Of a DNA stretch of 64,000 bases, positions 36,962-54,888 are shown piece after piece (the stretch's first letter is position 1; each line of letters starts with the position of its first letter). The stretch is from Brevibacterium sp. JSBI002 (lineage in GTDB: Bacteria > Actinomycetota > Actinomycetes > Actinomycetales > Brevibacteriaceae): positions 1,674,001 through 1,738,000 of the forward strand of contig NZ_CP110341.1 of NCBI RefSeq assembly GCF_026013965.1, in the 5' to 3' direction. The notes below the pieces were generated by a model. It searched no databases. It worked only from the letters and a program-made list of their open reading frames with translations, and was not told the origin of the DNA. The position numbers and the translations under genes were made by a program.

Positions 36962-37533
36962 ATGACCACGTCGACTCCGACCCAACCCGACACCGCACGG
37001 AAACCCACCGCCGTCATCGACCTGCCGACCGCCTCGGCACCGGTATATACGACGATCCTCGACACGGACCTGGGACCGGTCCTGCTCACCTCCGACGGCG
37101 TCCATCTCACTGGTCTCTATCTGGAGGTCTCCGAATTGATCGATGCTCGACTCGACAGAGCGTTCGGAGTCGAACCGACTCCGGAAGACGATCTGGAGAT
37201 CTTCCACCGCACTGAAGTGCAGCTGGGGGAGTACTTCGCCGGCCGCGCACAGCATTTGATCTGCCGTTGGCAGCAAAGGGAACGGAATTCCGACGCTCGG
37301 TATGGCAGGCGCTGACGCAGATCCCGTACGGCAGCACCGCAGGTTACGGTGAACTGGCCGAGATGCTGGGACGACCCGGTGCGGCCCGTGCGGTGGGGGC
37401 CGCCAATGGAAAGAACCCCATCAGCATCATCGTGCCCTGCCACCGAGTCATCGGAGCTGACGGATCCCTGACCGGCTACGCCTGGGGAGAAGAGAAGAAG
37501 CGCCAGCTCCTCACCCTAGAAACCCGCCCCTAA
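36962..37533 (+). pseudogene. ogt: methylated-DNA-protein-cysteine methyltransferase, frameshifted
   Basis: The gene is split between two frames. The N-terminal part (from ATG 36962, AAGGA upstream) reads normally through QLGEYFAGR, and the C-terminal part, with the active site PCHRV, continues in the -1 frame. One missing base after 37246 (GGCCGC^GCAC) explains it: adding a C gives [13 protein letters not shown], as in intact family members. The restored protein of about 190 aa would transfer O6-methyl groups from guanine to its cysteine. Its position after the AdaA-AlkA gene fits an adaptive response. The break may be a sequencing error (see findings). Confidence 0.85.
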
Positions 37534-37536
37534 TTA

Positions 37537-37592
37537 CTACCTGACGGCGGCCCAGCAACCTGGCGCGAGGTTGCTGGGCCGCCGTCAGGTAG
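37537..37592. repeat. 25-bp perfect palindrome with 6-nt loop
   Basis: Arms at 37537-37561 (CTACCTGACGGCGGCCCAGC...) and 37568-37592 are exactly complementary over 25 bp with loop GGCGCG. It begins 4 nt after the ogt stop and lies between ogt and the converging tRNA-Ala. It may be a terminator for ogt, but its perfection and length, and the lack of T tracts, also suit a mobile palindromic element. Confidence 0.85.
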
Positions 37593-37599
37593 CAAGAAA

Positions 37600-37627
37600 G
37601 GCGGGGATCCTTGTTCGGATCCCCGCC
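37600..37627 (-). terminator. rho-independent terminator of tRNA-Ala(GGC)
   Basis: An 11-bp stem GGCGGGGATCC/GGATCCCCGCC with loop TTGTTC, followed on the minus strand by TTTCTT, lies 10 nt past the 3' end of the tRNA. It has the classical stem plus T-rich tail on the minus strand. Confidence 0.8.
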
Positions 37628-37636
37628 CTTCAGCGG

Positions 37637-37709
37637 TGGAGGTAAGGGGATTCGAACCCCTGACCTTCTCCATGCCATGGAGACGCGCTACCAACTGCGC
37701 CATACCCCC
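37637..37709 (-). tRNA. tRNA-Ala (anticodon GGC)
   Basis: The 73-nt minus-strand gene gives a complete cloverleaf: acceptor GGGGGTA/TACCTCC with the alanine G3:U70 pair, D arm GCGC...GCGC, anticodon stem TCTCC/GGAGA with loop ATGGCAT, and T arm AGGGGTTCGAATCCCCT. Anticodon GGC reads GCC and GCU codons. No CCA is encoded. Confidence 0.95.
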
Positions 37710-37896
37710 GCTTGCCAGATCAATATTACCCACGTGTGGGTGAGAGACCAAATCGGCGGGAAGTGACGCTCACCACAAGGCTGGCAATGTTGGAAACCCC
37801 GTGGTCAGGCACTGATCGGGGACGACCCTGAGGCCCGAGTCCGATGAGCTCGGGCCACGGCGAGTCTGCTGTCCCCGGAGGATTCTCCGCGGCGTC

Positions 37897-38124
37897 TCAG
37901 ATGAACGGCCGGACCTGGCTGAGGTAGCGCACGATATCCCGCTCGCGCAGTTCACGTGCGCGCTGCTCGCGAGCGTGTACGCGCAGGCGAGCCTGCTGAC
38001 GACGGGTTGCCTTCAGGCGGCGGGTCTCGGGTGTCGGGGCTGGGCGGCGTGCCCACCGGATGAGCTTCATTCCGGTGCTCAGGGCCCAGCGTCGTGGATA
38101 GGTGAATGGGAATGTGGTGGACAC
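37897..38124 (-). CDS. small basic protein of unknown function
   Basis: A GTG at 38124 behind GAGGAAGAA opens a 75-aa frame. The product is very basic: a short hydrophobic-aromatic start (TTFPFTYPRRWALSTG), then RRPAPTPETRRLKATRRQQARLR-type Arg-rich helices and a C terminus DIVRYLSQVRPFI. No family is recognised. A longer frame continues upstream but has no ribosome binding site. The gene-like start and codon use give moderate support. Confidence 0.5.
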   Translation of the reverse strand: MSTTFPFTYPRRWALSTGMKLIRWARRPAPTPETRRLKATRRQQARLRVHAREQRARELRERDIVRYLSQVRPFI

Positions 38125-38987
38125 AATTCTTCCTCGTGGTTTTCGGGCAGGGGATATCCGCAAATGGGCAGGAGATATCCCGGAATGACGGTCAGATAAA
38201 CAATTGCCGAAAAAGCCGTGACAATGACGATGAATCGCCCGCATAAGGGTGCATATGACAAAGGCTGCTAATTGCCAATGTGGCAATAGGTCATTGAAAT
38301 GACAGCTTCACTGAGATGGCAACGGAATTCGACAGGCAATGAATCCGAACTGGTCGGCCGCAGAGCGGAAGTCGCCAGGTGGTACGGCGCTCACTCGGGA
38401 ATGCAGCAGATCGGACCGAACTCAAACATGTCGGCGTGAAGCGACCGGATCAGGTACGGCAGCTGGCGGTGCCAGGCACAGCAGGGATGCCGAAAGTGAT
38501 CTGGACACAAGCCAGGCGTGAAGAATGCCGGATATCAGGCAACCGGTGGCTCAGAGGACAACGGTGGCCGGAAGCCAACCGGTGGAAAAGACGTGAGAGA
38601 CGGCTGTGTCAGCCGACGAGTCCTTGTCCGCCAATCGGGCAGGCAGCGTATTCATGCCAGGGTGTTCGAAAGTCAGGGCCTGCAAGAAAATTCATCATCG
38701 TAACTGCTCTCCTTTCATGGTCGTGGATCTCGTGGGGACGGCGTGAACGTCCGCTATTGTCAAGGTGCAATCAGGGTGGTGTCTGCGAATCCGTAATTGC
38801 ACTGTCGAATTTAGCACAGCTTTCATTGTGTGTGGGAGTTTTGTTCATTATTTTCTCAAATATTTTCACTTCGTCTGTTCGGGTGAGAAAGACGGTTCGT
38901 GGAAACTGTTGGTCGAAGTGCTGTTTGGGCCGACGTAGAATCATAGGAGACGTGCATCAGTCGGACGCGCAGCTTGAGGAGTTGAGG
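38125..38987. other. gene-poor, AT-richer stretch
   Basis: About 860 nt with no conserved gene. Contents: an inverted repeat ATTGCC-AATGT-GGCAAT (38271-38287) that could be an operator; a possible 29-aa minus-strand ORF (38609-38698); and a markedly AT-rich segment (about 38800-38880) that probably holds promoters. TAGAAT at 38936-38941 may be the -10 box for the stress-protein gene. A plus-strand open frame runs from 38379 through to the stress gene, but its first 200 codons look non-coding. Confidence 0.6.
38609..38698 (-). CDS. possible 29-aa peptide gene
   Basis: On the minus strand an AAAGGAG stands 10 nt before ATGATG, which opens a 29-codon frame (start MMNFLAGPDFRTPWHEYAAC, end GLVG) and a TGA. 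The stop lies inside a CGGCT/AGCCG hairpin (38601-38615) followed by a T-rich stretch, which looks like a terminator. Codon use (TTT, CTT, ACA) is unlike neighbours. It may be a tiny peptide gene, a leader peptide, or chance. Confidence 0.35.
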   Translation of the reverse strand: MMNFLAGPDFRTPWHEYAACPIGGQGLVG

Positions 38988-39893
38988 ATGTCAGAGACCG
39001 CCACCACCAGACGTCTGGTCGTCGGATACATCGCCACGGATCGGGGTCGGGACGCGATCTCACTGGCCATTTCGATCGCGCGGTCCATCGACGTCGAGCT
39101 CGTGGTCACCATCGTCCGTCCGGAATCATCGACGATTCTCGCCGGCAGCGCCGTGCCGAAGGACGGGGCCGGGATCGTGGCCCAGCAGATCGATGATTGG
39201 CTGGACGAAGCGCTGGCACTCATCCCCGATGACATCCGCGCCATAGGCTGCATCCATATCGCCTCGAACGAATCCAAGGGACTCATGGAGGTCGCCGAGC
39301 AGGAAGGCGCACTGGGCATCATCATCGGTGCACGGGCCACCACACTCATGCGCCAACTGCGCATCGGCACGGTCGCTTCGTCGCTGCTGCACTCGTCGAC
39401 GGTACCCGTTATACTCGCCCCGTCGGGCAGATCCGACATCGGTCCGATCTCGCGGGTGACCGCACTCTACGGTGCTCGCCCAGGTGCCTCGTCACTCATC
39501 GGAGCGGCCATCGAATCGGCCGTCGGCCTCGGAGTCGATCTCAGGCTGCTGTCCCTGATCGAGAACGACGGACTCTATGACGACGAGGTCGCCGAGATCA
39601 CCGAATTCGCCGAACAGTACGGGGGAGCGGTGCTGGCCGACGACGCTTCGGAGATGCTGGCTTCTGGCCGCGCGACGGTGAGAACCAAGGCCGGAGCCGA
39701 TATCGAAGAGGCCGCCGAGACCATCGACTGGCAGCCCGGCGACCTCGCCTTTATCGGATCGAGCCGCTTGGGCCACGGAGGCAAGGTCGCGATCGGTGCG
39801 CGGGCTCGCCGCCTGCTGCGTGTCCTGCCCGTTCCGGTCGTGGTCGTGCCCCGACGTGCCGTGAGTCGACTGCACACCGCCGAAACCGACTGA
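38988..39893 (+). CDS. universal stress protein with tandem Usp domains
   Basis: This 301-aa protein has two UspA-like halves: residues about 8-145 (LVVGYIATDRGRDAISLAISIAR ... GIIIGARATTLMRQLRIGTVASSLLHSSTVPVIL) and about 155-295, ending LLRVLPVPVVVVPRR. The first half has a degenerate G-(2x)-G-(9x)-G(S/T) nucleotide motif. Such proteins aid survival under stress or oxygen limitation. GAGGAG precedes the ATG at 38988. The next gene begins one base after its stop codon. Confidence 0.88.
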   Translation: MSETATTRRLVVGYIATDRGRDAISLAISIARSIDVELVVTIVRPESSTILAGSAVPKDGAGIVAQQIDDWLDEALALIPDDIRAIGCIHIASNESKGLMEVAEQEGALGIIIGARATTLMRQLRIGTVASSLLHSSTVPVILAPSGRSDIGPISRVTALYGARPGASSLIGAAIESAVGLGVDLRLLSLIENDGLYDDEVAEITEFAEQYGGAVLADDASEMLASGRATVRTKAGADIEEAAETIDWQPGDLAFIGSSRLGHGGKVAIGARARRLLRVLPVPVVVVPRRAVSRLHTAETD

Positions 39894-39894
39894 G

Positions 39895-40770
39895 GTGCGG
39901 ATACGTCAATCACAGCGGACCGACATCCGCCTGGGCTCCCACAGCACGGCCGCGTGGCTCTATCCGGGTGACAGGCGTCGGCGTCCGCTGCTGATGGTGC
40001 ACGGCTTCCGTGGGGACCATCATGGAATGGACCTCATCGCCGGCAGCATCACCGACCGCGAGGTGGTCGTGCCCGACCTGCCCGGGTTCGGTCTCACGGC
40101 CCCGCTGGGCTCGGGCTCGTCGCTCTCTGCCTTCGTCGATCATCTCCTCGCGCTGCGCGCCGATGTGGGCAGGCAGCGGGGCGTGACACCGATCCTGGTG
40201 GGGCACTCCTTCGGATCGATCCTGGTCAGCCACCTAGCGGCCTCCCACCGGGACGTCATCGACGAGCTCGTGCTCATCAATCCGATCACCAGCCCCGCAC
40301 TCGAAGGACCCGCACGCTTCCTCACCGCGGTCACCCGCGCCTACTATGCCCTCGGCGCGCGGCTGCCCGAGCGCGCCGGTCGCGCCCTGCTGAGCAACCC
40401 CGTGATCGTCCGCGCCATGAGTGTGGCCATGGCCACGACCGGCGATCCCGGCCTGCGTTCTTACATCCATGATCAGCACGCGCGGCACTTCTCGTCGTTC
40501 GCCGACCGCACGTCCCTGTCAGAGGCCTTCGCGACGTCGGTCGCGCACACCGTCACCGAGGTGGCCGACCACTTGAGTATGCCCACGCTCGTCATCGCCG
40601 GCGATCATGACGCCATCGCTCCGATCGGACCGACCCGTGCATTCGTGGAGAAGCTCCCCGACGTCGATTTCGTGGAATTGGGCGGGGTGGGCCACCTCGT
40701 GCACTATGAGCGCTCGGAGGAAGCCGCCTCGGCGACCATGGATTTCTGTCACCGTCGAATCGACAGGTGA
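39895..40770 (+). CDS. alpha/beta hydrolase
   Basis: This 291-aa hydrolase has HGFRGDHHGMD (oxyanion-hole region, residue 35 on), the nucleophile elbow VGHSFGSIL near 103, an acidic residue in IAGDHDAIAP and the catalytic His in GGVGHLVHYER. It resembles lysophospholipase or haloalkane-dehalogenase-type hydrolases; the substrate is unknown. It starts at GTG 39895, one base after the stress-protein stop, so the two are likely in one operon. A strong hairpin follows. Confidence 0.85.
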   Translation: MRIRQSQRTDIRLGSHSTAAWLYPGDRRRRPLLMVHGFRGDHHGMDLIAGSITDREVVVPDLPGFGLTAPLGSGSSLSAFVDHLLALRADVGRQRGVTPILVGHSFGSILVSHLAASHRDVIDELVLINPITSPALEGPARFLTAVTRAYYALGARLPERAGRALLSNPVIVRAMSVAMATTGDPGLRSYIHDQHARHFSSFADRTSLSEAFATSVAHTVTEVADHLSMPTLVIAGDHDAIAPIGPTRAFVEKLPDVDFVELGGVGHLVHYERSEEAASATMDFCHRRIDR

Positions 40771-40789
40771 TTCGGCGTGTGACAAGACG

Positions 40790-40821
40790 AAGGGCCGCTG
40801 CGCATCAGCGCAGCGGCCCTT
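40790..40821. terminator. bidirectional hairpin terminator
   Basis: A 14-bp perfect stem (AAGGGCCGCTGCGC, 40790-40803, with 40808-40821) and a 4-nt loop lie between the converging hydrolase and a small membrane protein gene. The plus side is followed by CTTATG, the minus side by TCGTCTTG. Confidence 0.8.
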
Positions 40822-40839
40822 CTTATGCCGTGTAGGAGA

Positions 40840-41070
40840 TCAGCGGCGACCGTCGCGCGCCCAACGGTAGACGATCGGCACGAGGAACGCGAAGCTCGAT
40901 GCGAGCAGACCACCCCAGAACACCCAGAATTCGGTTCCCTCAGGCGAGGAGAACGAGGCTCCGAAAAGGTAGAGACCGAACAGGAAGAGCGCGAAGGCAA
41001 AGACGAAGACGATGACATCGGCGAACGATGCTGAATTGCGGGTTCTCTTCGGGGCGGCGATATCGGACAT
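40840..41070 (-). CDS. small two-span membrane protein
   Basis: This 76-aa protein has two hydrophobic spans (about 17-42 and 49-67) separated by SSPEGTEF and a basic C terminus RWARDGRR. The ATG at 41070 has a perfect GGAGGAG ribosome binding site. No family is recognised. It is probably an inner membrane protein. Confidence 0.75.
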   Translation of the reverse strand: MSDIAAPKRTRNSASFADVIVFVFAFALFLFGLYLFGASFSSPEGTEFWVFWGGLLASSFAFLVPIVYRWARDGRR

Positions 41071-41142
41071 GGTCTCCTCCGGCGATGATTCTGGTGGTCA
41101 GCTGACTCTCAGCGACAGTCTACATCGCGTAGAGGACTTTGC

Positions 41143-41562
41143 TCATCTCCGGTCGTGTTCGGCGCTTCGCTCCGGGACCAGCCAACCGAGCAGAGCCGAG
41201 ACGATCGAGACGATGATCGCGGCGAAGATGGCGGAGAAGAAGAACGAATCGATGGTGAACTCGAACGGGGTGAACCCGCTGAGCCAGCTCGTCAGCGCCA
41301 ACATGATCGCGTTGATGACGATCGAGAACAGCCCCAGAGTCAGACACGTGATCGGAGCCGAGACGAAGCTGAGGATCGGTTTGATGAAAGCGTTCGCCAA
41401 TCCGAAGATGAGGCCGATGACGAGGTAGGAGATGATCGTCGCCGGTATGGCTCCGGCCTGCTCCTCGACGACCCGGTTCCCTGTGATCGTCACACCCGGC
41501 AGGATCCAGGCCGCCACCCAGATCGCACAGGCGTTGACGATGACGCGAGACAAGAAGTTCAT
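41143..41562 (-). CDS. phage-holin-4-2-like (YvlD/DUF360) membrane protein
   Basis: This 139-aa protein with four spans has the family pattern LIFGLANAFIKPILSFVSAPITCLTLGLFSIVINAIMLAL. The Pfam name refers to a phage holin, but chromosomal members are small membrane proteins linked to envelope stress, with no lysis role. The ATG at 41562 has GAGG at good spacing; the ATG at 41571 touches the same GAGG and is less likely. The end of the gene carries a charged tail EHDRR. Confidence 0.82.
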   Translation of the reverse strand: MNFLSRVIVNACAIWVAAWILPGVTITGNRVVEEQAGAIPATIISYLVIGLIFGLANAFIKPILSFVSAPITCLTLGLFSIVINAIMLALTSWLSGFTPFEFTIDSFFFSAIFAAIIVSIVSALLGWLVPERSAEHDRR

Positions 41563-41814
41563 ATCCGTCATCCTCGCAGACCGATCTGCGTTCTTTCTGA
41601 GTCGCGGATGGGAATGAGTTCCGTGCCATGGTGATCAAACTCAACGTCGCTTGGTGCACTGGCACTCGAATCGGATCGGCAAACACAGTAGCCTGAAGGG
41701 GAACCTCTCGGTTCGACTTTCTCAGACCAACAGCGTGCACCTACCGAGTGATTTGATCCAGGTCACCACGGCGGCACGACCTCCCGGATGAGCGGGAGCA
41801 GAAACTGGATTGAT

Positions 41815-43125
41815 ATGACAGACAGCGACACACCCTCCTCGGCTCGGCGCACCACCGTGCAGCAGTCTTCACCGACTCTGTTCTCGGCCGTCGGGCGCAG
41901 CTATTTCCCGATCGCCTTCGTCGCCCGCATGCCTTTCGCCATGATCGTCGTCGGTGTGCTCACCCTCGTTGTGGCCGCACGCGGATCGCTCAGCCTGGGC
42001 GGGATCAACTCCGCCATGGTCGGATTGGGCACGGCTCTGTTCGGTTCCTTCATCGGGGCGGCCGCTGATCGTTGGGGTCAGCGCTACGTTCTGCTCATCG
42101 CCGGGATCCTCAACTGCCTGGCGCTGACTTTCATGGCATGGGTCGTCTTCAGCCCGCTGCCGGATTTCGTCGTGTTCATCGCCGCCTTCGCGATCGGTGC
42201 CACCTCACCTCAGGTCGCACCGATGTCGCGGTCTCGCATCGTCGACATCGTCATGTCCGTGCTGCCCTTGTCGAGGCGGCCGAAGGTGCTCAATGCCACG
42301 ATGGCCTACGAATCCGCCGCCGATGAGGTCATCTTCGTCTTCGGACCTTTCCTCGTCGGACTCTTGGCGACCTTCTTCACCCCGGTCGCGCCCATCATCG
42401 GGGCGATCGTGATGACGCTCGTCTTCGTCTCCGCCTTCGCACTCCACCCGACAGGTCGGGCGCGTTCGACGGGGACGTCGAGCAGCCTCGGCGAGCGTGC
42501 TCCGGCCAAGGACGTGTTCACCGCCGGTGTCTTCGTCATCATCCTCGGCGTGTTCGGCGTCGGCATGGTGTTCGGCTCTACGCTCACGGCTCTCACCGCG
42601 TTGACCAACGACATCGGCCGACCGGAGGAAGCCGGACTCATCTACGGAGTCATGGGCATCGGCTCTGCGGTGCTGGCGATCTCGGTGGCGCTGTTCCCCT
42701 CAGCGTTCGCGCTGTGGGCCCGACTGCTGTGTTTCGCGCCGGTTCTGGTCACGGGCTCGGTCATCCTCGCATCGACAGAAGCGATGCCGATCATCGTCAT
42801 GGCTCTGCTGCTCATGGGAACGGGAATCGGGCCGAGCCTCGTCACCCTCTTCAGCCTCGCTGCCGAACGGGCACCGCTCGGACGCTCGGCGACGGTGATG
42901 TCGATGGCGGGGTCGGCGATCATCGTCGGCCAATCGGTGTCCTCGGCGATCAACGGAATCCTCGCCGAGGATCAGGGAACGGCCGTGGCGATGGCCGTCC
43001 CGGTGGCCGCCTCGGCGATCGTCCTCTGTGCCGGTATCCTCAATCTGTTCGTCGGGAAGCGCCGCGATCAGAACGCTGACAAGCCGTCACGGCATCGCGT
43101 AACAGACGGCGAAGAAGAGATCTGA
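41815..43125 (+). CDS. MFS transporter
   Basis: This 436-aa protein has 12 hydrophobic spans and the MFS loop GSFIGAAADRWGQRYVLL between spans 2 and 3. The family is an exporter-like MFS of unknown substrate. I chose the ATG at 41815 (GGAT 5 nt upstream); an in-frame ATG at 41788 would add nine residues. It stands alone between the YvlD-like gene and the peptide transporter. Confidence 0.83.
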   Translation: MTDSDTPSSARRTTVQQSSPTLFSAVGRSYFPIAFVARMPFAMIVVGVLTLVVAARGSLSLGGINSAMVGLGTALFGSFIGAAADRWGQRYVLLIAGILNCLALTFMAWVVFSPLPDFVVFIAAFAIGATSPQVAPMSRSRIVDIVMSVLPLSRRPKVLNATMAYESAADEVIFVFGPFLVGLLATFFTPVAPIIGAIVMTLVFVSAFALHPTGRARSTGTSSSLGERAPAKDVFTAGVFVIILGVFGVGMVFGSTLTALTALTNDIGRPEEAGLIYGVMGIGSAVLAISVALFPSAFALWARLLCFAPVLVTGSVILASTEAMPIIVMALLLMGTGIGPSLVTLFSLAAERAPLGRSATVMSMAGSAIIVGQSVSSAINGILAEDQGTAVAMAVPVAASAIVLCAGILNLFVGKRRDQNADKPSRHRVTDGEEEI

Positions 43126-43272
43126 ATCACTCTGACTTTCCGCTTTTTGGGACGGCGTGTCCCAGGCGTTGCCAGGTGTGACCACGGCAAAACCGAGGAG
43201 TAGGATGTCCGCTGGTCCATCGTGAAATGCGCCACGGATCGTGGCCTCTCACACCACTACGGAAAGCACACA

Positions 43273-44742
43273 ATGTCTTCAAGCACCTCGACGACCGAGG
43301 CCGTCCGCAGCGACACCCGCTTCTTCGGACACCCTCTGCCGCTCTTGCAGCTGTTCAGCCTGGAACTGTGGGAGCGATTCTCCTACTACGGAATGAACGG
43401 CATCCTCGCCCTCTACCTCTACTTCAGTGTCACCGACGGCGGCATGGGGATGGAGCAGGGTACGGCCGTGGGCATCGTCGGTGCGTACGGCGGTGCCGTC
43501 TTCCTCGCTACGATCCTCGGCGCCTGGATCGCCGACCGCCTCGCCGGAGCCGAGAAGGTCCTCTTCTACTCAGCGATCATCATCATGGTCGGCCACATCT
43601 GCTTGGCGTTCATCCCCGGTTTTGGGGGAGTGGCGGTCGGCCTCATCCTCGTTGCGCTCGGATCCGGCGGTCTCAAGGCGAATGCCTCGGCACTCGTCGG
43701 TGAACTCTACGAAGAGAAGGATCCGCGCCGTGACGCCGGTTTCACCATCTTCTACATGGGTGTGAACATCGGAGCCTTGTTCGGACCGCTGATCACAGGT
43801 CTGCTGCAGTCGAACATCGGCTTCCACTACGGCTTCGGGGCCGCCGCGATCGGCATGGCCCTTGGTCTCGTCATCTACCTCACCGGTCGCAAGAATCTGC
43901 CGCCGGAGTCGCGGGTGGCGGTCAACCCGCTGCCGAAGAACAAGCTCTACCTCTTCGTCGTGGCCGTCGTGGTCGTCGTTCTCCTCGCCGTCATTCTGTG
44001 GATGACGAAGGTCGTCAACCCCGAGAACCTCGATTGGTGGATCGCCGGCATCTCCGCCGGTGCGGCCGCCTGCTACTTCATCGTCATGTACACCTCACGG
44101 CAGACGAAAGGCGACGAGCGCTCCCGCGTCCTCGCCTACATCCCATTCTTCATCACCGTCGTCATCTTCTGGTCGATGTACCAGCAGATCTTCGGCGTGC
44201 TGACCGTCTACTCGGATACCCAGCTCAACCGTTCGATCTTCGGTTGGGAGATGCCGATCAACTGGATCCAGCTGATCCCTGCGTTCTTCGTCATCGTCTT
44301 CGCCCCGCTGTTCGCGACCATGTGGATGAAGCTCGGACCCAAGCAGATCTCGACACCTGTCAAGGCCGGACTGTCTCTCGTGCTCATCGGCATCGGCTTC
44401 CTCATGTTCCTGCCCTTCGCTGAGGCCGGGCAAAATGAGACCCCGCTGCTGTGGGTATGTCTGACCCTCGCCGTGTTCGTCTTCGGTGAGCTGCTCATCT
44501 CGCCGGTGGGACTCTCGTTCTCCACGAAGGTCGCTCCGAAGGTATTCCAGTCGCAGATGATCGCCGTGTTCTTCCTCGCCTCAGGCGTGGGTACGGCGCT
44601 GTCCGGTGTGCTCGGCGGGTACTTCGACGCCGGCAACCAGGCACCCTACTGGCTGTCGGTCGGCGGATCGTCGGTCGTGCTCGGCCTGCTCGCGCTGACG
44701 CTGACGAAGCCGATGCTGGGGCTGCTGCGCGGAATCCGCTGA
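43273..44742 (+). CDS. POT-family proton-dependent di/tripeptide transporter
   Basis: This 489-aa protein with 14 predicted spans has the POT signatures ELWERFSYYGMNGILALYL (residues 34-52, including the E-x-x-E-R-type proton-coupling motif) and the PTR2 segment FTIFYMGVNIGALFGPLITG near 175. It imports di- and tripeptides with protons, supplying amino acids. The ATG at 43273 is favoured over upstream starts because it begins the SSSTSTT polar tail seen in such proteins. A hairpin follows 30 nt after the stop. Confidence 0.93.
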   Translation: MSSSTSTTEAVRSDTRFFGHPLPLLQLFSLELWERFSYYGMNGILALYLYFSVTDGGMGMEQGTAVGIVGAYGGAVFLATILGAWIADRLAGAEKVLFYSAIIIMVGHICLAFIPGFGGVAVGLILVALGSGGLKANASALVGELYEEKDPRRDAGFTIFYMGVNIGALFGPLITGLLQSNIGFHYGFGAAAIGMALGLVIYLTGRKNLPPESRVAVNPLPKNKLYLFVVAVVVVVLLAVILWMTKVVNPENLDWWIAGISAGAAACYFIVMYTSRQTKGDERSRVLAYIPFFITVVIFWSMYQQIFGVLTVYSDTQLNRSIFGWEMPINWIQLIPAFFVIVFAPLFATMWMKLGPKQISTPVKAGLSLVLIGIGFLMFLPFAEAGQNETPLLWVCLTLAVFVFGELLISPVGLSFSTKVAPKVFQSQMIAVFFLASGVGTALSGVLGGYFDAGNQAPYWLSVGGSSVVLGLLALTLTKPMLGLLRGIR

Positions 44743-44771
44743 TTCAGTCAGTGCGCGGATAGTCAGTTCAG

Positions 44772-44813
44772 CCCGAGGGCCCCTGTGAGTCACCGACTCG
44801 CAGGGGCCCTCGG
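44772..44813. terminator. hairpin terminator after the peptide transporter
   Basis: An 18-nt stem CCCGAGGGCCCCTGTGAG pairs with CTCGCAGGGGCCCTCGG with one G:U and little loop (about TCACCGA). It is 30 nt past the transporter stop. Confidence 0.75.
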
Positions 44814-44923
44814 CGTTGCCTGGGGGCATCCCTCACCCGCAGTGTCGTTTCAGAGCGTTGCAGCACGAGGGTGTGGCCGGACGGGCGATGGATGCCGGAG
44901 CAACGGTATGAATTGGCACTAGT

Positions 44924-44980
44924 GGGAGGGCGTGCGACTGACGGGAGGGCGTGCGGCCGACGGGAGGGCGTGACGCGGGC
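44924..44980. repeat. three 19-bp G-rich tandem repeats
   Basis: Copies start at 44924, 44943 and 44962. Each begins GGGAGGGCGTG; the first two differ at two of 19 positions (GGGAGGGCGTGCGACTGAC and GGGAGGGCGTGCGGCCGAC) and the third diverges in its second half. The six G3 runs could form a G-quadruplex on the plus strand. It lies in the 300-nt gap between the peptide transporter and the end of the CPBP gene; nothing else is seen there. Confidence 0.8.
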
Positions 44981-45041
44981 TGGGTGAATCGCAAGCACAG
45001 CGCGGCACAGCCTCAGCGAGCGTGTGTGACGCGCCCCCGAG

Positions 45042-45926: not shown

Positions 45927-46010
45927 CGGATCTTCAGCCAGTGGCGCACCGGAACATCGCGCTTGGCTGTGCCGAATCGCAAGTAGGATCGGAGCGAGGG
46001 AAGGACATCA

Positions 46011-47228: not shown

Positions 47229-47248
47229 TGCCGTCCGCCCTGTCGGAT

Positions 47249-47254
47249 TAGGAT
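47249..47254 (+). promoter_or_regulatory. -10 box of a probable leaderless moeB transcript
   Basis: TAGGAT ends 6 nt before the ATG at 47261; the gap GGGGCC is G-rich but would not be transcribed. No good -35 box is visible. The gene is also close to moeA1 (32 nt), so read-through is possible. Confidence 0.35.
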
Positions 47255-47260
47255 GGGGCC

Positions 47261-48466
47261 ATGTCCACTTCACGCCTCAGCCCTGCCGACCGGACCCGCT
47301 ACGCACGGCAGATCCGGCTGTCCGGATTCGGCGAAAGCGCGCAGGCGTCGCTGCTCGACTCGCACGTGCTCGTCATCGGCGCCGGGGGGCTCGGTGCCCC
47401 GATTCTCAGCTACCTCGCGGCCGTGGGCATCGGCACGATCACCGTGGTCGACCCCGATATCGTCGAACTGAGCAATCTGCATCGACAGGTCATCCACACC
47501 GAGGCGGCCATCGGCACTCGTAAGATCGATTCCGCTCAGCAGCGGATGAACGGGATCAATTCGTCGATCGAGGTCCGCACGATTCCGCAGCTGCTCACTC
47601 CGGACAACGCTCTCGAACTCTTCGCAGGCGTCGACATCGTCGTCGACGGCAGCGACAACTTCGCCACCCGCTACCTCGCCAATGACGCCTGTGAGATTCT
47701 CGGCATCCCGCTCGTCTGGGGGACGATCCTCGGCTTCGACGGCCAGGTCGCCGTCTTCGATGCCGAACGCGGCGCCACCCTGCGCGACATCTACCCCGAG
47801 GTTCCCGCTCCGGGCAGTGTGCCCGACTGCTCGGTCGCCGGAGTCCTCGGGCCCCTGTGCGGAAGCATCGGATCCGCCATGGCGATGGAGGCCGTCAAGG
47901 TGCTCACCGGCATCGGGACACCGCTGATCAACAGCGTGGCGATCCACAGCAGCCTCGACGCGGGCTGGGAGACGGTCCCGGTCCGGCCGATCCCCGGCAG
48001 GCCTCCGGTCACCGACCTCGAGCAGCATCGCGGCGACTACGCCCAGCACACGTTCGACTCTCTGAGCACCGACGGCGACACGGCAGAGAGTGCAAAAGGC
48101 TCGACCACAGGGGAGGACCCTCTCGGGCCGGCCACCGTCACCTGGGCGGAGGTCGAGTCAGGCTCCATCCTCGTCGACATCCGCGATGACGATGAGGTCG
48201 CCTCGGGGATGGTCCCCGGTGCCATTCACATTCCGATGGACGAGCTGCTCGCCGATCTCAGCCGGCTGCCGACTGCCAACACAGCCGACGCGTCCGCCAT
48301 TTCTGACGTCGCCCCCGCACGGCCGCACGGGATCGCACTGTACTGCCGGTCGGGAGTGCGCTCGGCGAAGACCGCTGCGCAGCTGCGTTCACACGGCATC
48401 GCAGTGACCTCGGTCAACGGCGGATACCTCGCGTTTCTGTCACAGCCGACACCTCAACGGCGCTGA
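47261..48466 (+). CDS. moeB: MoeB/MoeZ-type adenylyltransferase with rhodanese domain
   Basis: This 401-aa E1-like protein has the ATP motif GAGGLGAPIL (near residue 41), the RQVIH and DGSDNFATRYLANDA motifs and a C-terminal rhodanese domain (about 290-400) with the active-site cysteine in LYCRSGVRSAKTA. It adenylates the C-terminal Gly-Gly of MoaD (and maybe ThiS or CysO), and the rhodanese gives sulfur. The CxxC zinc-cysteines of E. coli MoeB are not obvious. It converges on moaD. Confidence 0.92.
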   Translation: MSTSRLSPADRTRYARQIRLSGFGESAQASLLDSHVLVIGAGGLGAPILSYLAAVGIGTITVVDPDIVELSNLHRQVIHTEAAIGTRKIDSAQQRMNGINSSIEVRTIPQLLTPDNALELFAGVDIVVDGSDNFATRYLANDACEILGIPLVWGTILGFDGQVAVFDAERGATLRDIYPEVPAPGSVPDCSVAGVLGPLCGSIGSAMAMEAVKVLTGIGTPLINSVAIHSSLDAGWETVPVRPIPGRPPVTDLEQHRGDYAQHTFDSLSTDGDTAESAKGSTTGEDPLGPATVTWAEVESGSILVDIRDDDEVASGMVPGAIHIPMDELLADLSRLPTANTADASAISDVAPARPHGIALYCRSGVRSAKTAAQLRSHGIAVTSVNGGYLAFLSQPTPQRR

Positions 48467-48472
48467 CGAGTC

Positions 48473-48718
48473 CTACCCGCCGGCGAACGGCGGGAGAACG
48501 TCGACGGTGTCACCATCGGCCAAGGCTGCCGACTTGTCGGTGGCGGCCACGGAATTGACGAGGAAGCTCGAGCGCGACAGCACGGTCGCGGCTTGGGGGT
48601 CGGCCGCCTCGGCGAGGGTCGTGACGAGCTCATCGACGGACCCGGCACGGATCTGTGATTCTCGGGCGCCGAAGGCCTCCCGGGCTGCGGCGAAGAACCG
48701 AACGGTGATGGTGGGCAC
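48473..48718 (-). CDS. moaD: molybdopterin synthase small subunit (MoaD/ThiS-like sulfur carrier)
   Basis: This 81-aa beta-grasp protein ends in FAGG; the terminal Gly-Gly is thiocarboxylated. The N-terminal TITVRFFAAAREAFG is typical of MoaD. It gives sulfur to precursor Z through MoaE. The GTG start is next to the moaA stop, and the overlap-like spacing implies one transcript moaA-moaD. Confidence 0.92.
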   Translation of the reverse strand: MPTITVRFFAAAREAFGARESQIRAGSVDELVTTLAEAADPQAATVLSRSSFLVNSVAATDKSAALADGDTVDVLPPFAGG

Positions 48719-49807
48719 TTATCCTCCGATGGCGCTCATGGGTCGTTGCGGCTGCTCGAACGAATCCGTTTCCATCCCATGACCGGCGAGCTTCTTCCAG
48801 TGCGCACCCTTCCACAGGTTCGCGATCGATTCGTCGGAGGCGCCATCGCGCATCGCGGTGAGCAGATCGACCTCGGTGCGGGAGAACAGGCAGGTGCGCA
48901 CACGTCCTTCCGCGGTCAGCCGGGTGCGAGTGCAGTCGGCGCAGAAGGGACGCGTGACCGAAGCGATGATGCCGACGGTGCCGAGGATCGTATCGGGACG
49001 GCGTTGATCGGCGACGAGGAACTTCTCGGCCGGGGCGCCGTTGCGCGGGGCCGAATCCGGGGTGAGGACGAATCGGGGTTCGAGGAGGGCGAAGATGTCG
49101 GCGGCGGTGATCATCGACGTCCGCTCCCAGGAATGTCCGGCGTCCAGGGGCATCTGTTCGATGAACCGCAGGCTCAGATCCTGTTCGAGGCACCACTGCA
49201 GCAGATCAGGCGCTTGTGCATCGTTGACCCCCGGCAGGAGCACAGCGTTGATCTTCACCGGCTCGAGGCCGGCGGCCTTCGCCCCGTCGATGCCTGCCAG
49301 CACGCGTTTGAGGAATGGGCGCCGGGTCATCGTCTCGAAGGTCTCCGGATCGATCGTGTCGAGCGAGACGTTGATGCGATCGAGTCCGGCGGCCTTGAGC
49401 CCGGCCGCTCGTTTGTCGAGGCCGATCGCGTTCGTCGTCAGCGCGATGTTCGGGCGCGGTTCGAGGGCGGCGACCCCGGCGATGATCTCGTTGATGTCCT
49501 TGCGGGTCAGTGGTTCACCGCCGGTGAACCGGACCTGGTCGACCCCGAATTTCTCCACGGCGATGCGCACGAACCGAACGATCTCGTCCCGCGACATTGC
49601 GGAATCACGAGACATGAATTCGACGCCTTCGGCCGGCATACAGTACGTGCAGCGCAGATTGCAGAAATCGGTGAGTGAGATGCGCATGTCGGTGGCGCGA
49701 CGATCGAAGGTGTCGAGCAGCGCATCCTCGTTGTGGCCGGTGAATTCCGCACCTGGGTCGACAGTCGGAGTTCTCAGCACAGGCATCGGCAGACCGATCT
49801 TCTCCAT
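48719..49807 (-). CDS. moaA: GTP 3',8-cyclase
   Basis: This 362-aa radical-SAM enzyme has the CxxxCxxC cluster motif in DFCNLRCTYCMPAEG (near residue 46), the second cluster cysteines in PFCADCTRTRLTAEGRVRTCLF, and the C-terminal Gly-Gly tail (SAIGG). With MoaC it turns GTP into cyclic pyranopterin monophosphate. The start ATG follows AAGGAGG. It is divergent from moeA2 with only 40 nt between the start codons. Confidence 0.96.
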   Translation of the reverse strand: MEKIGLPMPVLRTPTVDPGAEFTGHNEDALLDTFDRRATDMRISLTDFCNLRCTYCMPAEGVEFMSRDSAMSRDEIVRFVRIAVEKFGVDQVRFTGGEPLTRKDINEIIAGVAALEPRPNIALTTNAIGLDKRAAGLKAAGLDRINVSLDTIDPETFETMTRRPFLKRVLAGIDGAKAAGLEPVKINAVLLPGVNDAQAPDLLQWCLEQDLSLRFIEQMPLDAGHSWERTSMITAADIFALLEPRFVLTPDSAPRNGAPAEKFLVADQRRPDTILGTVGIIASVTRPFCADCTRTRLTAEGRVRTCLFSRTEVDLLTAMRDGASDESIANLWKGAHWKKLAGHGMETDSFEQPQRPMSAIGG

Positions 49808-49847
49808 TTCGTCATCCTCCTTGAGAGCGTGTCGATATCATCGTCCC

Positions 49848-51055
49848 ATGACTACAGCGAAGATGCATCGTGAGCGGGTATTCGAGACGATCGCTCCACT
49901 CACCGGGACGCAGGAGCTGCCGCTGCACGCACTGCTCGATGCCCCGCGCAGGCTCGCCGCCGATGTGAGTTCACCGATCGATGTTCCCGGCTTCGACAAC
50001 TCGAGCATGGACGGTTATGCCTTGGCCGCGGCACCGTGGAGGAGATGCGGCAACGCCCGATTCTCGTATGCGGTCGCGTCGCAGCGGGGTCCCGTGGTGA
50101 GACAGTCCAGCCGGGCACCGCGGTGGAGATCATGACCGGGGCACCGCTGCCGCAGGGAACCGATATGGTCGTCAAGATCGAAGACACCTCGCCGGGACGC
50201 TTCGGTGCCGAATCCATCACCCTCGACGCTCATGCGGAACCGCGCCCGGGAGCATTCGTCCGCCCCCGCGGCTCCGACGTGAGCGCCGGGCAGACCGTGC
50301 TCACCGCGGGCACCATGCTCACTCCCGCCCACCTCGGCGTGGCCGCCGCCTGCGGAATCCGCACGCTGCCGGTCCTCTCGCTGCCACGCGTGCTCATCGT
50401 GAGCACAGGTGACGAGATCGCCGCCGAGGCGGCCGCCGGAATCAACGACGCGAACTCAGTGACGCTCTCGGCCGGGCTGCGCCGCCTCGGCGTCGAAGTC
50501 GATGTCGCCTTCGTCCCCGATGATCCGCAGCAGCTGCTCGACCGAGTGCGGCGCAGCGACGCACAGCTCGTCATCTCCACCGGCGGAATCTCCAAAGGCG
50601 CTCACGAAGTCGTCAAGCTCGCAGCCGAACTCGATGCCGAATCCGCGATGGTCTTCGAACCCATCGCCATGCAGCCCGGCGGACCACAGGGATGCGGACG
50701 TCTGGCAGACCACGCCTGGGTCGCGCTGCCCGGCAACCCGGTGAGCACCCTCATCAGCTTCGAACTGTTCATCCGTCCCGCGCTGCTCGGCCTGGCAGGC
50801 GACGCAGCGCCCCGCGAAGTCGCCCACCACCGCCTGGCCCACGGGTTCGATGAGACCCCGCCGGCCGGGAAGCTCCAGGTCCGCCGTGCCCGGCTCACCG
50901 AGGCGGGCCTCGAATTCGTCGGCGATTCCCGTTCCCACCTGCTCCACAGCTACGCCGAGGCGACCCACCTCGTCTTCGTCTCACCCGACGAACCCGGACC
51001 GGACAACCCGTTCTCACCCGCGGGGGATAGGCTGATGACGTGGAAGATCGCATGA
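49848..51055 (+). pseudogene. moeA: second MoeA-type molybdotransferase, frameshifted
   Basis: The N-terminal part from ATG 49848 reads normally through NSSMDGYALAA, then the frame is lost at GGCCGC^GGCA (50024-50033). From GTVEEMRQRPILVCG the second frame has all MoeA domains: the MTGAPLPQGTDMVVKIED loop, STGGISKGAHEVV and ALPGNPVSTLISFELF. Adding one C after 50029 restores a protein of about 402 aa. This copy has the classical GNPVS motif. TATCAT (49836-49841) ends 6 nt before the ATG and no ribosome binding site is seen, so a leaderless start is possible. It overlaps moaC by 4 nt. Confidence 0.85.
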
Positions 51056-51522
51056 AGCTCTCGCACGTCGACGAGACCGGAACCGCCCAGATGGTCGATG
51101 TCGGCGACAAAGACGTGACCAAACGCCGGGCGGTGGCCACCGGGACCATCACGACCCGCAGCGAGGTCATCGACATGATCGCCGAGGCGGGACTGCCCAA
51201 GGGAGACGCCCTGCCCGTGGCGCGCATCGCCGCAGTGATGGGGGCGAAGCGCACCAGCGACCTCATTCCCCTGTGCCATCCGCTGCCGCTGACCGGAATC
51301 GACGTCGAATTCGCACTCGGCGACGATCGTGTGACCATCACCGCCGCAGTGAAGACGGTGTCGAAGACCGGAGTCGAGATGGAGGCCCTGACGGCCGTGA
51401 CCACGGCCGCGCTGACGATCTTCGACATGATCAAGGCCGTGGACAATCAGGCCGTGATCAGCGATGTCAAGGTCATCGAGAAGTCAGGCGGAAGGAGCGG
51501 AGATTGGACACGAGGAGCATGA
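51052..51522 (+). CDS. moaC: cyclic pyranopterin monophosphate synthase
   Basis: This 156-aa protein has the MoaC signatures LIPLCHPLPLTGIDVEF, the KTGVEMEALTAVTTAAL segment with catalytic residues, and DMIKAVDN. It acts with MoaA to make the pterin precursor. The ATG at 51052 overlaps the moeA2 stop and matches the family start; a GTG at 51040 behind GGGGGATAGG is a possible alternative. Its stop overlaps moaE by 4 nt. Confidence 0.95.
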   Translation: MKLSHVDETGTAQMVDVGDKDVTKRRAVATGTITTRSEVIDMIAEAGLPKGDALPVARIAAVMGAKRTSDLIPLCHPLPLTGIDVEFALGDDRVTITAAVKTVSKTGVEMEALTAVTTAALTIFDMIKAVDNQAVISDVKVIEKSGGRSGDWTRGA

Positions 51523-51953
51523 GCGCTACCGGCACGGTCATCACCACCGGAGTCGTCGACACCGAGATCTCCACGGCGGCCCTCGAACCCGAAGTCCTCA
51601 CCGACACCTGCGGCGCAGTCGTGAGCTTCTCCGGCGTCATCCGCGACCACGACGAGGGCCGCGGCGTGAGTTCCCTGCACTATGAGGCCCACCCCCTCGC
51701 GGCCGATCAGATCGCCGAGGTGGCCGCCGACATCGCTGCCCGCCACGCCGAGGTCCGCCTCTCCGTCGTCCACCGGGTCGGCGACCTCACCATCGGAGAC
51801 GTGGCTCTGGCCGCCGTCGTGGCCTCGGCCCACCGGAAGGACTCGTTCCTGGCCTGTTCCGAACTCATCGACGAGGTCAAAGCCCGAGTGGCGATCTGGA
51901 AGCACCAGCACTTCGCCGACGGCAGCGACGAATGGGTGGGAGCCCTCGAATGA
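51519..51953 (+). CDS. moaE: molybdopterin synthase large subunit
   Basis: This 144-aa protein has the MoaE patterns GAVVSFSGVIRDHDEG, LHYEAHPLA, VHRVGDLTIGD, the catalytic Lys region SAHRKDSF and IWKHQHF. With MoaD it puts the two sulfurs on precursor Z to make molybdopterin. Its start is ATG at 51519 with GAGGAG upstream. It overlaps both neighbours. Confidence 0.95.
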   Translation: MSATGTVITTGVVDTEISTAALEPEVLTDTCGAVVSFSGVIRDHDEGRGVSSLHYEAHPLAADQIAEVAADIAARHAEVRLSVVHRVGDLTIGDVALAAVVASAHRKDSFLACSELIDEVKARVAIWKHQHFADGSDEWVGALE

Positions 51954-52351
51954 CTCAGCTGCGCATCAGCGAGGCCGCACGGTTCCTCGGCGTCAGCGAC
52001 GACACGGTGCGCCGGTGGGTCGCCGACGGGCGGCTCACCTCGCTCAAGGACTCCTCGAACCGTGCCGTCGTCGAAGGCAGGGAACTCGCCGAACTCGCGC
52101 AGTCGTCCGCAGCCTCACTCGCCGACCCCAGCGGCGTTATGAGCTCCTCACGGAACCGATTCGCCGGTCTCGTCACCGCCGTCGCCGTCGACGGAGTCAT
52201 GGCCCAGGTGAGCATGCAGTGCGGGCCCTTCCGCGTGGTCTCGCTGATGTCGGCCGAAGCGTGCCGCGAACTCGACCTGCAGCCGGGCAGTCTCGCCACC
52301 GCCTCGGTGAAGGCGACGATGGTCTCGATCGACACTGTCCCCGGCGACTGA
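51950..52351 (+). CDS. HTH-Mop (TOBE) molybdate-responsive protein
   Basis: This 133-aa protein has an excisionase/MerR-type helix-turn-helix (residues 3-45, RISEAARFLGVSDDTVRRWV) and one Mop/TOBE-like domain (about 66-132), where MopI-like proteins bind molybdate. It may regulate modA or store molybdate. It overlaps moaE by 4 nt and precedes modA by about 110 nt. This is a minimal ModE-like layout known in actinobacteria, but function is inferred. Confidence 0.85.
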   Translation: MTQLRISEAARFLGVSDDTVRRWVADGRLTSLKDSSNRAVVEGRELAELAQSSAASLADPSGVMSSSRNRFAGLVTAVAVDGVMAQVSMQCGPFRVVSLMSAEACRELDLQPGSLATASVKATMVSIDTVPGD

Positions 52352-52439
52352 GCCTCACCCGTCAACCGGTGGGAGAGCCGATTTTCGGGACTGCAGACCG
52401 CCCTGGAATCTCAAAAGCGTCGTCCAAGTCGACATGAAC

Positions 52440-52451
52440 CCGCAAATGCGG
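52440..52451. promoter_or_regulatory. inverted repeat in the modA leader
   Basis: CCGCA-AA-TGCGG is an exact 5-bp inverted repeat 13 nt before the modA start, partly overlapping the region upstream of the GGGGG ribosome binding site. It is a candidate operator for the HTH-Mop protein or a small RNA hairpin. Confidence 0.35.
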
Positions 52452-52464
52452 TTTCAATAGGGGG

Positions 52465-53229
52465 ATGAAGAAAACCCTTATCGGGCTCAGCATCGTCGCT
52501 GCCCTGACCCTGTCCGCGTGTTCCTCCGGCGCCGATTCGCAGTCCGAATCGGATGCGCCCAAGGAGATCACGGTGTTCGCCGCCGCCTCGCTGACGGAGG
52601 TGTTCGAAGACATCGCCGACGAATTCGCGAAGGCCGAGCCGGATGCGCCCGAGGTGAAATTCTCCTTCGCGGGATCGTCCGACCTCGTCGCGCAGATCTC
52701 CGAAGGCGCCCCCGCCGACGTCATCGCCACCGCCGACGAGAAGACCATGGACACCTTGAACGGCGACGATCTGCTCGCCGCAGAGCCGACGATGTTCGCC
52801 TCGAACACGCTGACGCTGGCCGTAGCCGAAGGCAATCCGACGGCGATTGAGAGTTCGAAGGACTTCGCCGACAGCGATCTCGTCGTGTGCGCGCCCCAAG
52901 TTCCCTGCGGTGCGGCCACCGAGAAGTGGGCCGACGCCAATGATGCGACGCTCGAACCAGTCAGCGAAGAGAACTCCGTGACCGACGTCCTCGGCAAGGT
53001 CAGCGCCGGGCAGGCCGACGCCGGCATCGTCTACGTCACCGATATCGCCCGCGCTGACGGCAAGGTCGAGCAGGTCGACCTCGACGGCGCCGACAAGGTC
53101 GTCAACAAGTACCCCGCCGCGACCGTTAAGGCCAGCGAGAATCAGGAGCAGGCCGAAGCGTTCGTCGAGTTCCTCGGAACCGATACCGCCCAGAAGCTGC
53201 TGCGCGACGCCGGGTTCGCCGCCGCCTGA
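52465..53229 (+). CDS. modA: molybdate ABC transporter substrate-binding lipoprotein
   Basis: This 254-aa protein starts with a lipoprotein signal (LTLSAC lipobox; Cys at residue 19) and a mature periplasmic-binding fold. ModA features are ITVFAAASLTEVFEDI, KFSFAGSSDLVAQI, the GAPADVIATAD segment and the CAPQVPCG and GKVSAGQADAGIVYV regions. It binds molybdate or tungstate outside the membrane. It is followed by the fused permease-ATPase gene after 1 nt. Confidence 0.95.
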   Translation: MKKTLIGLSIVAALTLSACSSGADSQSESDAPKEITVFAAASLTEVFEDIADEFAKAEPDAPEVKFSFAGSSDLVAQISEGAPADVIATADEKTMDTLNGDDLLAAEPTMFASNTLTLAVAEGNPTAIESSKDFADSDLVVCAPQVPCGAATEKWADANDATLEPVSEENSVTDVLGKVSAGQADAGIVYVTDIARADGKVEQVDLDGADKVVNKYPAATVKASENQEQAEAFVEFLGTDTAQKLLRDAGFAAA

Positions 53230-53230
53230 T

Positions 53231-54888
53231 ATGGCCCCAGGACGCAGAGGGGGAGGGGTCTCGACGATTCCCGGCTGGCTGTGGATTCCCGCCGCCGTCG
53301 GGATCGTCTTCCTCCTCCTGCCCATCATCGGGATGGTCTCCCGCATCGACCCGCAGGGCCTCCTCGACGTCATCCGCGCCGAGGAATCCCGGCTCGCGAT
53401 GCAGCTGTCCCTGCTGACCTCGGTGATCTCGGCCCTGGTCAGCGTCGCCCTCGGGTTCCCGCTGGGCTACCTGCTCGCGACCAAGGACTTCCGCGGACAG
53501 CGGATCGTGCGCACCCTCATCCTGCTGCCGCTCGTGCTTCCACCGGTGGTCAGCGGTCTGGCACTGCTCTACACCTGGGGGCGCTCGGCCGTTCTCGGCG
53601 GCGCCGCGGAAGATCTCGGACTGAGCCTGGCCTACACCACCTCGGCGGTGATCATGGCCCAGATCTTCGTCTCGCTGCCGTTCATGGTCATGTCGGTCGA
53701 GACCGCAACCACGGCTCTGGGGCGTCGCTTCGAGCTCACCGCCGCCGAACTCGGGGCGAAACCCGACCGCGTGTTCTTCACGGTCACGCTGCCGCTCCTG
53801 CGCAACGGCATCACCACTGGCGCCGTCCTCTGCTTCGCTCGCTCCCTCGGCGAATTCGGTGCCACCCTGACCTTCGCCGGATCCCTCTCCGGCGTCACTC
53901 GCACGATGCCCCTGCAGATCTACCTCGTCCGCGAATCGGATCCGCAGGCCGCCATCGGCCTGTCCCTGCTGCTCATCGTCATCGCCGTGGTCATCATCGT
54001 CCTAGCCTACCGATCCCCGCACGCCCCCCGCCTCCGCCCGACACCCCGGACGGTGAAGTCCACCCTCGCCGAGGCGGCCACCCCGCCACCGCGCCATGAC
54101 CGGGCACAGGGTGCTCCGATCACATCCGGTCCACCGTCCGGAGGGCGTCTGAGCACCGCGGTGGAACTTGCCGAGCGGGGAATCGCTCTCGACTTCACCG
54201 TCCCCGCCGGGGCGACGACCGCGATCATCGGGCGCAACGGCGCCGGCAAATCGAGCCTCTTCCACATCCTCACCGGAGCGCTGCGCCCCGACTCCGGACA
54301 CCTGCGCATCGGTGACGATGCGATCTTCGATCTGGACGCCGGGCACTGGCCGGCCATCCACGACCGCGGCATCATCCATCTGGCGCAGAACCCGCTGCTG
54401 TTCCCACACCTGAGCGTCATCGACAACGCGAGCTACGGTCTACGCGCTCACGGCATGGCCCGCGGGCGGCCCGGGAACGGGCGCAGGACATGCTCGACCG
54501 CCTCGGCGTCGGTCACTGTGCGCAACGGCGACCCGAAGCGGTCTCGGGCGGCCAGGCCGCACGCATCGCTCTGGCCCGCGCCCTCCTCGTCGATCCGCGG
54601 CTGCTTCTGCTCGACGAGCCCCTTGCCGCACTCGACGTCGATGTGCGCGTCGAGACCCGTCAGGTGGTCGCCGAACTCCTGGCCGATCGCAGCGCACTGC
54701 TCATCACTCATGACATCGACGACGTCAGCGCGCTGGCCGATGAGCTCGTGCTCGTCGAAGACGGAGCGGTGGAACTGTCGGCCCAGGTAGGGCACGTCGA
54801 TCCAGGGCAAGCCGGAGCAGGGGAGGACTTTCTGCGGAGCTTTTGCATGATGGACCGCGACGGCATAGTGTGCAATCAGTCACATTGA
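53231..54888 (+). pseudogene. modB: fused molybdate permease-ATPase (ModB-ModC), frameshifted
   Basis: Residues 1-about 270 are the ModB permease with about five spans and the EAA-like loop (AAELGAKPDRVFFTVTLPLL). A linker and the ModC ATPase follow: Walker A IGRNGAGKSS and Q-loop AQNPLLFPHL read in the first frame. Then the frame is lost at GCCCGC^GGGC (54458-54467), and SGGQAARIALARALL, Walker B LLLLDEPLAALD and the H-loop LITHDIDD are in the -1 frame. Adding a C after 54463 gives a 552-aa fusion. No C-terminal TOBE domain is seen. ModBC fusions are known in actinobacteria. Confidence 0.87.

Follow-up and report, generated by a model that had tools for sequence, protein, structure and literature searches.

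Background

Small errors of several kinds have been described in bacterial genome assemblies, and they are the closest known counterparts of the features that we report here, namely single frame breaks in the genes ogt, moeA and modBC of Brevibacterium sp. JSBI002. All three breaks lie in one window, by which we mean the whole 64,000-nucleotide stretch that was analysed (positions 1674001-1738000 of the 3,741,678-base single-contig genome, which has a completeness score of 99.74%). From comparison with relatives we conclude that they are very probably consensus errors, made in the assembly of a finished genome, and that the three are members of a larger, genome-scale group of single-base losses associated with palindromes.

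Among the described error classes, those in the part of the Kastor study consulted (PMC12007338) resemble the present case in that short false deletions, often in short homopolymer runs, break genes and were found by comparison with relatives. The same part of that study differs in linking the deletions to homopolymers, mostly of four to five bases and with A/T runs ahead of G/C. The string "palindrom" occurs 0 times in PMC12007338, and the palindrome link is a feature of the present genome. In the excerpted account of PacBio-derived assemblies (PMC11649196), G/C runs in a high-G+C bacterium are likewise one base short, but the differences number 3, 5 and 8 per genome and fall in runs of 4-10, whereas JSBI002 shows 20 losses in 464 kilobases (kb), mostly in runs of 2-3 and inside palindromes. 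Modification-linked nanopore errors, as far as the partial texts of two reports go (PMC12016153, PMC11610573), are also systematic, dependent on context and decided by the opposite strand. They are mainly purine/pyrimidine ambiguities at motifs, whereas the events in JSBI002 are deletions that have no common motif beyond dyad symmetry. Among the matches listed from the open-licence literature, judged by titles and the starts of abstracts, there was no paper on palindrome-linked deletion errors.

Frame breaks in ogt, moeA and modBC

Five relatives were available for comparison with the window, at identities of 91% (G026, G027 and G036), 87% (G029) and 86% (G018). The original prediction, which was made from the letters of the window, held that ogt, moeA and modBC each switch frame once, and the comparison bears this out: the frame changes near window positions 37243, 50030 and 54465, respectively, and at all three places the window is one base shorter than each of the five relatives. 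The accompanying claim that the genes show no other decay also stands, as the only stop in the retained frames is the terminal one and protein matches to G018 continue on both sides of the break along each gene. In window coordinates, the parts of the three genes are as follows:

36962-37243, + strand: 5' part of ogt in the first frame, free of stops; the relative's gene carries TIGR00589, PF01035 and PF02870
37235-37250, + strand: frame break in ogt, one base fewer than in all five relatives; exact lost base not resolvable
37244-37533, + strand: 3' part of ogt in the shifted frame, up to the stop; terminal stop only, and the protein match goes on
49848-50031, + strand: 5' part of moeA, free of stops; the relative's gene carries PF03453 and PF00994
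50022-50036, + strand: frame break in moeA, one base fewer than in all five relatives; a perfect palindrome of 12 base pairs (bp) in G036
50032-51055, + strand: 3' part of moeA in the shifted frame; open reading frame (ORF) 50036-51055, with 96% identity to the full-length protein P0002
53231-54465, + strand: 5' part of the modBC fusion gene (permease and the start of the ATPase); the relative's gene carries TIGR02141, TIGR01581 and PF00005
54456-54470, + strand: frame break in modBC, one base fewer than in all five relatives; exact base not resolvable
54466-54888, + strand: 3' part of modBC in the shifted frame, the remaining ATPase; terminal stop only, and the protein match goes on

Because relatives differ from one another in the residue at the break, both in ogt (pattern readable in 18 of 19 loci) and in modBC (22 loci), the lost base in these two genes has no unique placement. 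The corresponding position of MoeA is A, S, T or E in 22 Brevibacterium loci, and it is alanine in the four best full-length database proteins examined (P0002-P0005). One added base had been said to restore the family sequence exactly in all three genes; for MoeA, the glycine string that results is found in 0 of the 22 loci.

Single-base losses across 464 kb

The main comparison set JSBI002 genome positions 1474001-1938000 (464 kb) against the syntenic stretches of G036, the nearest relative compared in the palindrome tests, and of G018, the second reference. All three were compared as assembled sequences, and the count of losses was limited to genes that are open in both relatives. Across this region, 20 single-base losses fall in conserved genes of JSBI002, and the breaks in ogt, moeA and modBC are three of them. 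Compared site by site with each relative, the 20 sites give 58 cells, and JSBI002 is the shorter sequence in 57 of them, with one double site supplying six of the cells; the sole exception is the G018 cell at 1897552, though the gene comparison with G018 as reference shows the loss there. Dropped before this count were a loss at 1619015 (codon 10 of its gene), an insertion at 1751646 (codon 13), longer insertions and deletions (indels), and an antisense duplicate of 1894515.

With a uniform filter (events of 1-2 bases, with an identity of at least 70% in the 30 bases flanking each side), JSBI002 had 18 distinct single-base losses and 1 insertion (332 genes, 369 kb). Under the same filter G036 had 0 events (316 genes, 342 kb), and G018 had 7, of which 3 were single-base losses (318 genes, 350 kb).

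Within 375 kb of the middle region, a stricter pairwise test returned 20 losses and 3 insertions, 23 events in all; these 20 losses are a different set, which adds three sites unpolarised by the third genome and misses others. Reversing the test in the same region yielded 21 events for G018, 16 of them insertions, many of which mirror the losses of JSBI002. Elsewhere in the genome it gave 5 events in 93 kb between 1.938 and 2.038 megabases (Mb), comprising three single-base losses, one 2-base loss and 1 insertion, no events in 34 kb of the 2.70-2.78 Mb interval, and 1 event in 129 kb of the origin region (positions 1-200000). The origin looks cleaner than the middle region (1 versus 20, one-sided p = 0.017), which could be explained by lower read depth away from the origin. 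In the three-genome test of the origin region, JSBI002 had 3 short events with G018 as reference (1 loss, 2 insertions) and 5 with G029 as reference (3 losses, 2 insertions), while G018 and G029 as tested genomes had 1 short event each. An alternative procedure, a scan of the 464 kb for frame junctions with tblastn, gave 38 junctions for JSBI002 and 46 in reverse, many of them from antisense or overlapping ORFs, and was replaced by the polarised three-genome tests.

Central genes among those affected

Family models identify among the affected genes those for transketolase, a phosphoglucose isomerase-domain protein, GAPDH and subunit I of the aa3 oxidase; for RNase E, EttA, MshC, an RNase H and a UvrA-like protein; and for an error-prone polymerase and a HisN-type phosphatase. 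The transketolase N domain lies in two frames in JSBI002, and it is complete in 55 of the 56 other genomes of the genus; the one genome in which it is not, G034, is a draft assembly in about 280 contigs. Cytochrome oxidase subunit I (COX1) is similarly divided between two frames, and it is complete in 53 of the 56; of the other three, G012 has none, G003 has a partial match and G051 has one at a contig end. The only RNase E/G domain of JSBI002 is in an open frame of 629 amino acids, as against 1021, 1036 and 1045 in all three relatives compared. GAPDH was also hit, but its case carries less weight, as JSBI002 has two more copies that are intact. As a separate observation, in the single-contig genome G003 (contig 1, 2069851-2071029) the COX1 match is without the first 49 model positions, and it is possibly a similar break.

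That one living strain should have lost all of these genes through single bases is, in our strong judgement, not credible. Because the splitting seen in ogt, moeA and modBC also affects central metabolic genes, in their sole or main copies, we infer that the three breaks are very probably consensus errors, and comparative sequence evidence argues strongly that the losses as a set are errors rather than mutations. The suggestion in the original prediction of a systematic sequencing or consensus error is thus strongly supported by the many single-base losses, the few gains and the splitting of sole or main copies of central genes. Its sense that three such breaks exceed chance holds in that they are 3 of the 20 losses in 464 kb, and fails in attributing them to CCGCCG.

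Association with runs and palindromes

By our count, 15 of the 20 lost bases are G or C. The losses are enriched in runs: 16 of 20 are in runs of at least 2, which hold 41% of G036 bases, and 9 of 20 are in runs of at least 3, which hold 10% (p = 6e-5). No single short motif is common to the 20 sites.

We scored a loss as associated with a stem when it lay in, or at most 2 bases from, a stem of at least 5 bp with a loop of at most 4, and took as controls positions of equal base class and run length in the genes concerned. With G036 as the reference, 15 of the 20 losses were at such stems, where 2.6 were expected, and none of 20000 resamples had a mean as high as that observed. Run length alone therefore falls short of accounting for the losses, as the excess persists against run-matched positions. 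The moeA palindrome of G036 is not present in G018, and the break in modBC falls at a 10-bp perfect palindrome in both G036 and G018.

The loss rate in JSBI002 climbs with palindrome length, and there is no such climb in the control genomes. We counted one-base losses at spacer-free G036 palindromes of unchanged length in G018, a count in which overlapping palindromes may enter one loss twice. JSBI002 had lost a base at 2 of 5676 palindromes of 6 bp, 4 of 1693 of 8 bp, 5 of 519 of 10 bp, 2 of 117 of 12 bp, 1 of 43 of 14 bp, and 2 of 25 of at least 16 bp. With G018 as the reference the figures were 42/21820 at 4 bp, 6/5650 at 6 bp, 4/1708 at 8 bp, 5/501 at 10 bp, and 1/21 at 16 bp or more. As controls, losses in G018 were 0/517 at 10 bp, 1/117 at 12 bp, 0/44 at 14 bp and 0/23 at 16 bp or more, and those in G036 were 0/496, 0/110, 0/49 and 0/20 for the same classes.

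A spacer between the arms changes the outcome. For arms of at least 5, spacer-free palindromes had lost a base in 10 of 704 cases, versus 6 of 4287 for those with loops of 3-12 (p = 1e-5); the short loops gave 1 loss in 740 (loop of 1) and 1 in 556 (loop of 2). A physical hairpin artefact was considered and rejected on these figures, since spaced inverted repeats are spared; hairpins are not a likely cause because a stem with a natural loop would be expected to fold no less readily. At the 13 sites with a spacer-free G036 palindrome of at least 8 bp, 12 allow the loss to be placed 3-5 bases from the centre, and modBC is not resolvable in this respect. One palindrome (genome positions 1860798 and 1860802) has lost a base from each arm, at mirrored places.

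A number of points weigh against the palindrome rule or against an excess particular to JSBI002. The rule was noticed post hoc, on reading the 20 contexts, and was tested on the same region; it rests mostly on that one region and one close reference. With G018 as the reference the stem association is weaker (7 of 20 losses, 2.2 expected, p = 0.004), and no losses were seen at palindromes of 12 bp (0/110) or 14 bp (0/50). The 4-bp class with G036 as the reference (43/21632) is off the length trend, and the stem at ogt is of 2 bp only, in G036 and in G018 alike. When a scan of runs was restricted to those with the same 4-base flanks in the three genomes, it failed to separate JSBI002 (10 changed runs, 8 of them losses) from G018 (12; G036 had 4), and it misses most of the 20 sites. 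Outside support for the rule is thin: it comprises the base lost from an intergenic palindrome of at least 30 bp near 1777467 and, among five short losses found outside the region, one in a 20-bp G018 palindrome (near 2015879). One more of the five is beside an 8-bp palindrome, and the other three have no palindrome of note in G018.

Alternative explanations

The most ordinary alternative is that short G/C runs were under-called in long-read assembly and that the palindromes, being rich in such runs, are incidental. The enrichment of the losses in runs speaks for it, and in the part of PMC12007338 consulted long-read errors are mainly short homopolymer indels, with false deletions in the majority. 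We nevertheless consider it unlikely, because the palindrome excess holds against positions matched for base class and run length and because spaced inverted repeats are spared. Base modification, which the original prediction had raised, would act by disturbing base calling and so cost a base at modified recognition sites, which are often palindromic. It draws on nanopore errors near modified bases, on the modified strand (PMC12016153, excerpt), but it is quite improbable here, as no short motif is common to the 20 sites and the rate climbs with palindrome length well past the usual recognition sites.

Palindromes are known sites of instability, and a deletion process directed by them, or a mutator lineage, would make the losses real mutations, with which the large surplus of losses over gains would agree. 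Against this, transketolase, COX1 and RNase E/G would all have to be lost in one living strain, and ogt, moeA and modBC show no other decay, so that we regard real mutation as very unlikely; the mutational hotspot that had been offered beside sequencing error is unlikely too, since losses also strike genes that the cell should need. Still less probable is an error or hotspot specific to CCGCCG, the shared base and context that had been claimed for the three breaks. All three junctions do read CCGCG in the window, but the lost base has no unique placement in ogt and modBC, the residue proposed for MoeA is in 0 of the 22 relatives, and the other losses are in different contexts. A count at CCGCCG/CGGCGG sites was made for 1662 sites of G036, of which 1448 had alignable flanks and 214 were not judged: JSBI002 had lost a base at 0 of the 1448 (1447 were unchanged, and 1 had gained three bases), and the control directions gave 3 of 1426 for G018 and 2 of 1458 for G036. 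The good preservation of the genes apart from the breaks might also suggest programmed ribosomal frameshifting or true pseudogenes, which we find scarcely believable, as all five relatives are without the shift at all three genes and 20 unrelated genes would each need one.

A possible mechanism and its implications

If the losses are consensus errors, the palindromes may have exposed a gap in the protection that reads of two strands give to each other. Base dropping would occur in sequence contexts particular to the strand being read, and at most sites reads of the opposite strand would retain the base, so that the consensus is correct. A spacer-free palindrome presents identical letters on both strands; reads of one strand would then lose the base in one arm and those of the other in the mirrored arm, few full-length reads would be left, and the consensus would settle on the shorter form. 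The protective effect of spacers would follow if the error context extends across the centre, and the same scheme would account for hits in both arms. A nanopore study offers a parallel in its excerpted part, in which modification-linked errors are on the methylated strand and the other strand is accurate (PMC12016153). We put this mechanism forward weakly, on the pattern of lost letters, with perhaps an even chance of being right.

We more tentatively raise the possibility, which we think is somewhat doubtful, that the losses represent an unnamed class of error in finished genomes, in which single bases are lost 3-5 positions from the centre of a spacer-free palindrome and neither strand rescues the other. 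Were such a class to exist, it would create false pseudogenes in high-G+C genomes, and its sites would be open to prediction and screening from the sequence alone. Should the palindrome rule hold elsewhere, false pseudogenes in such genomes could be picked out even with no reads to hand, and polishing programs could be alerted to places where agreement between the two strands gives no safeguard. For JSBI002 itself, with its completeness score of 99.74%, readers of the annotation would still take MoeA, Ogt, RNase E/G, transketolase and cytochrome oxidase subunit I to be broken. Scaled up from 20 in 464 kb, the losses would number at most about 160 genome-wide, or fewer if the origin region is cleaner.

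Other observations

Right after ogt, the window has a long near-perfect inverted repeat (37540-37590), the core of which occurs in 3 full copies in 464 kb of JSBI002, 3 in 480 kb of G036 and 1 in 480 kb of G018. It is a small dispersed palindromic element that may act as a terminator, and the intergenic palindrome near genome position 1777467 is of the same kind. The protein at window positions 48719-49807 is presumably MoaA-like. Within 22908-25546 there is a frame difference from G018 near 23944; as a candidate further break it was apparent against G018, was absent from the sites common to at least three of the five relatives and was not counted, and it is probably a lineage difference.

Elsewhere in the JSBI002 genome, a 20-base insertion near position 1661816 lies beside a second copy of its 20 bases, 14 codons from the start of a gene that has about 912 codons in G036, and it may be a real duplication or a case in which an alternative start is used. 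Near 1753281, 154 bases of a 254-codon G036 gene are missing, and in contrast to the single-base losses this has the look of a true deletion. Finally, near 1777467 there is an intergenic perfect palindrome that is at least 30 bp in G036 and is one base shorter in JSBI002.

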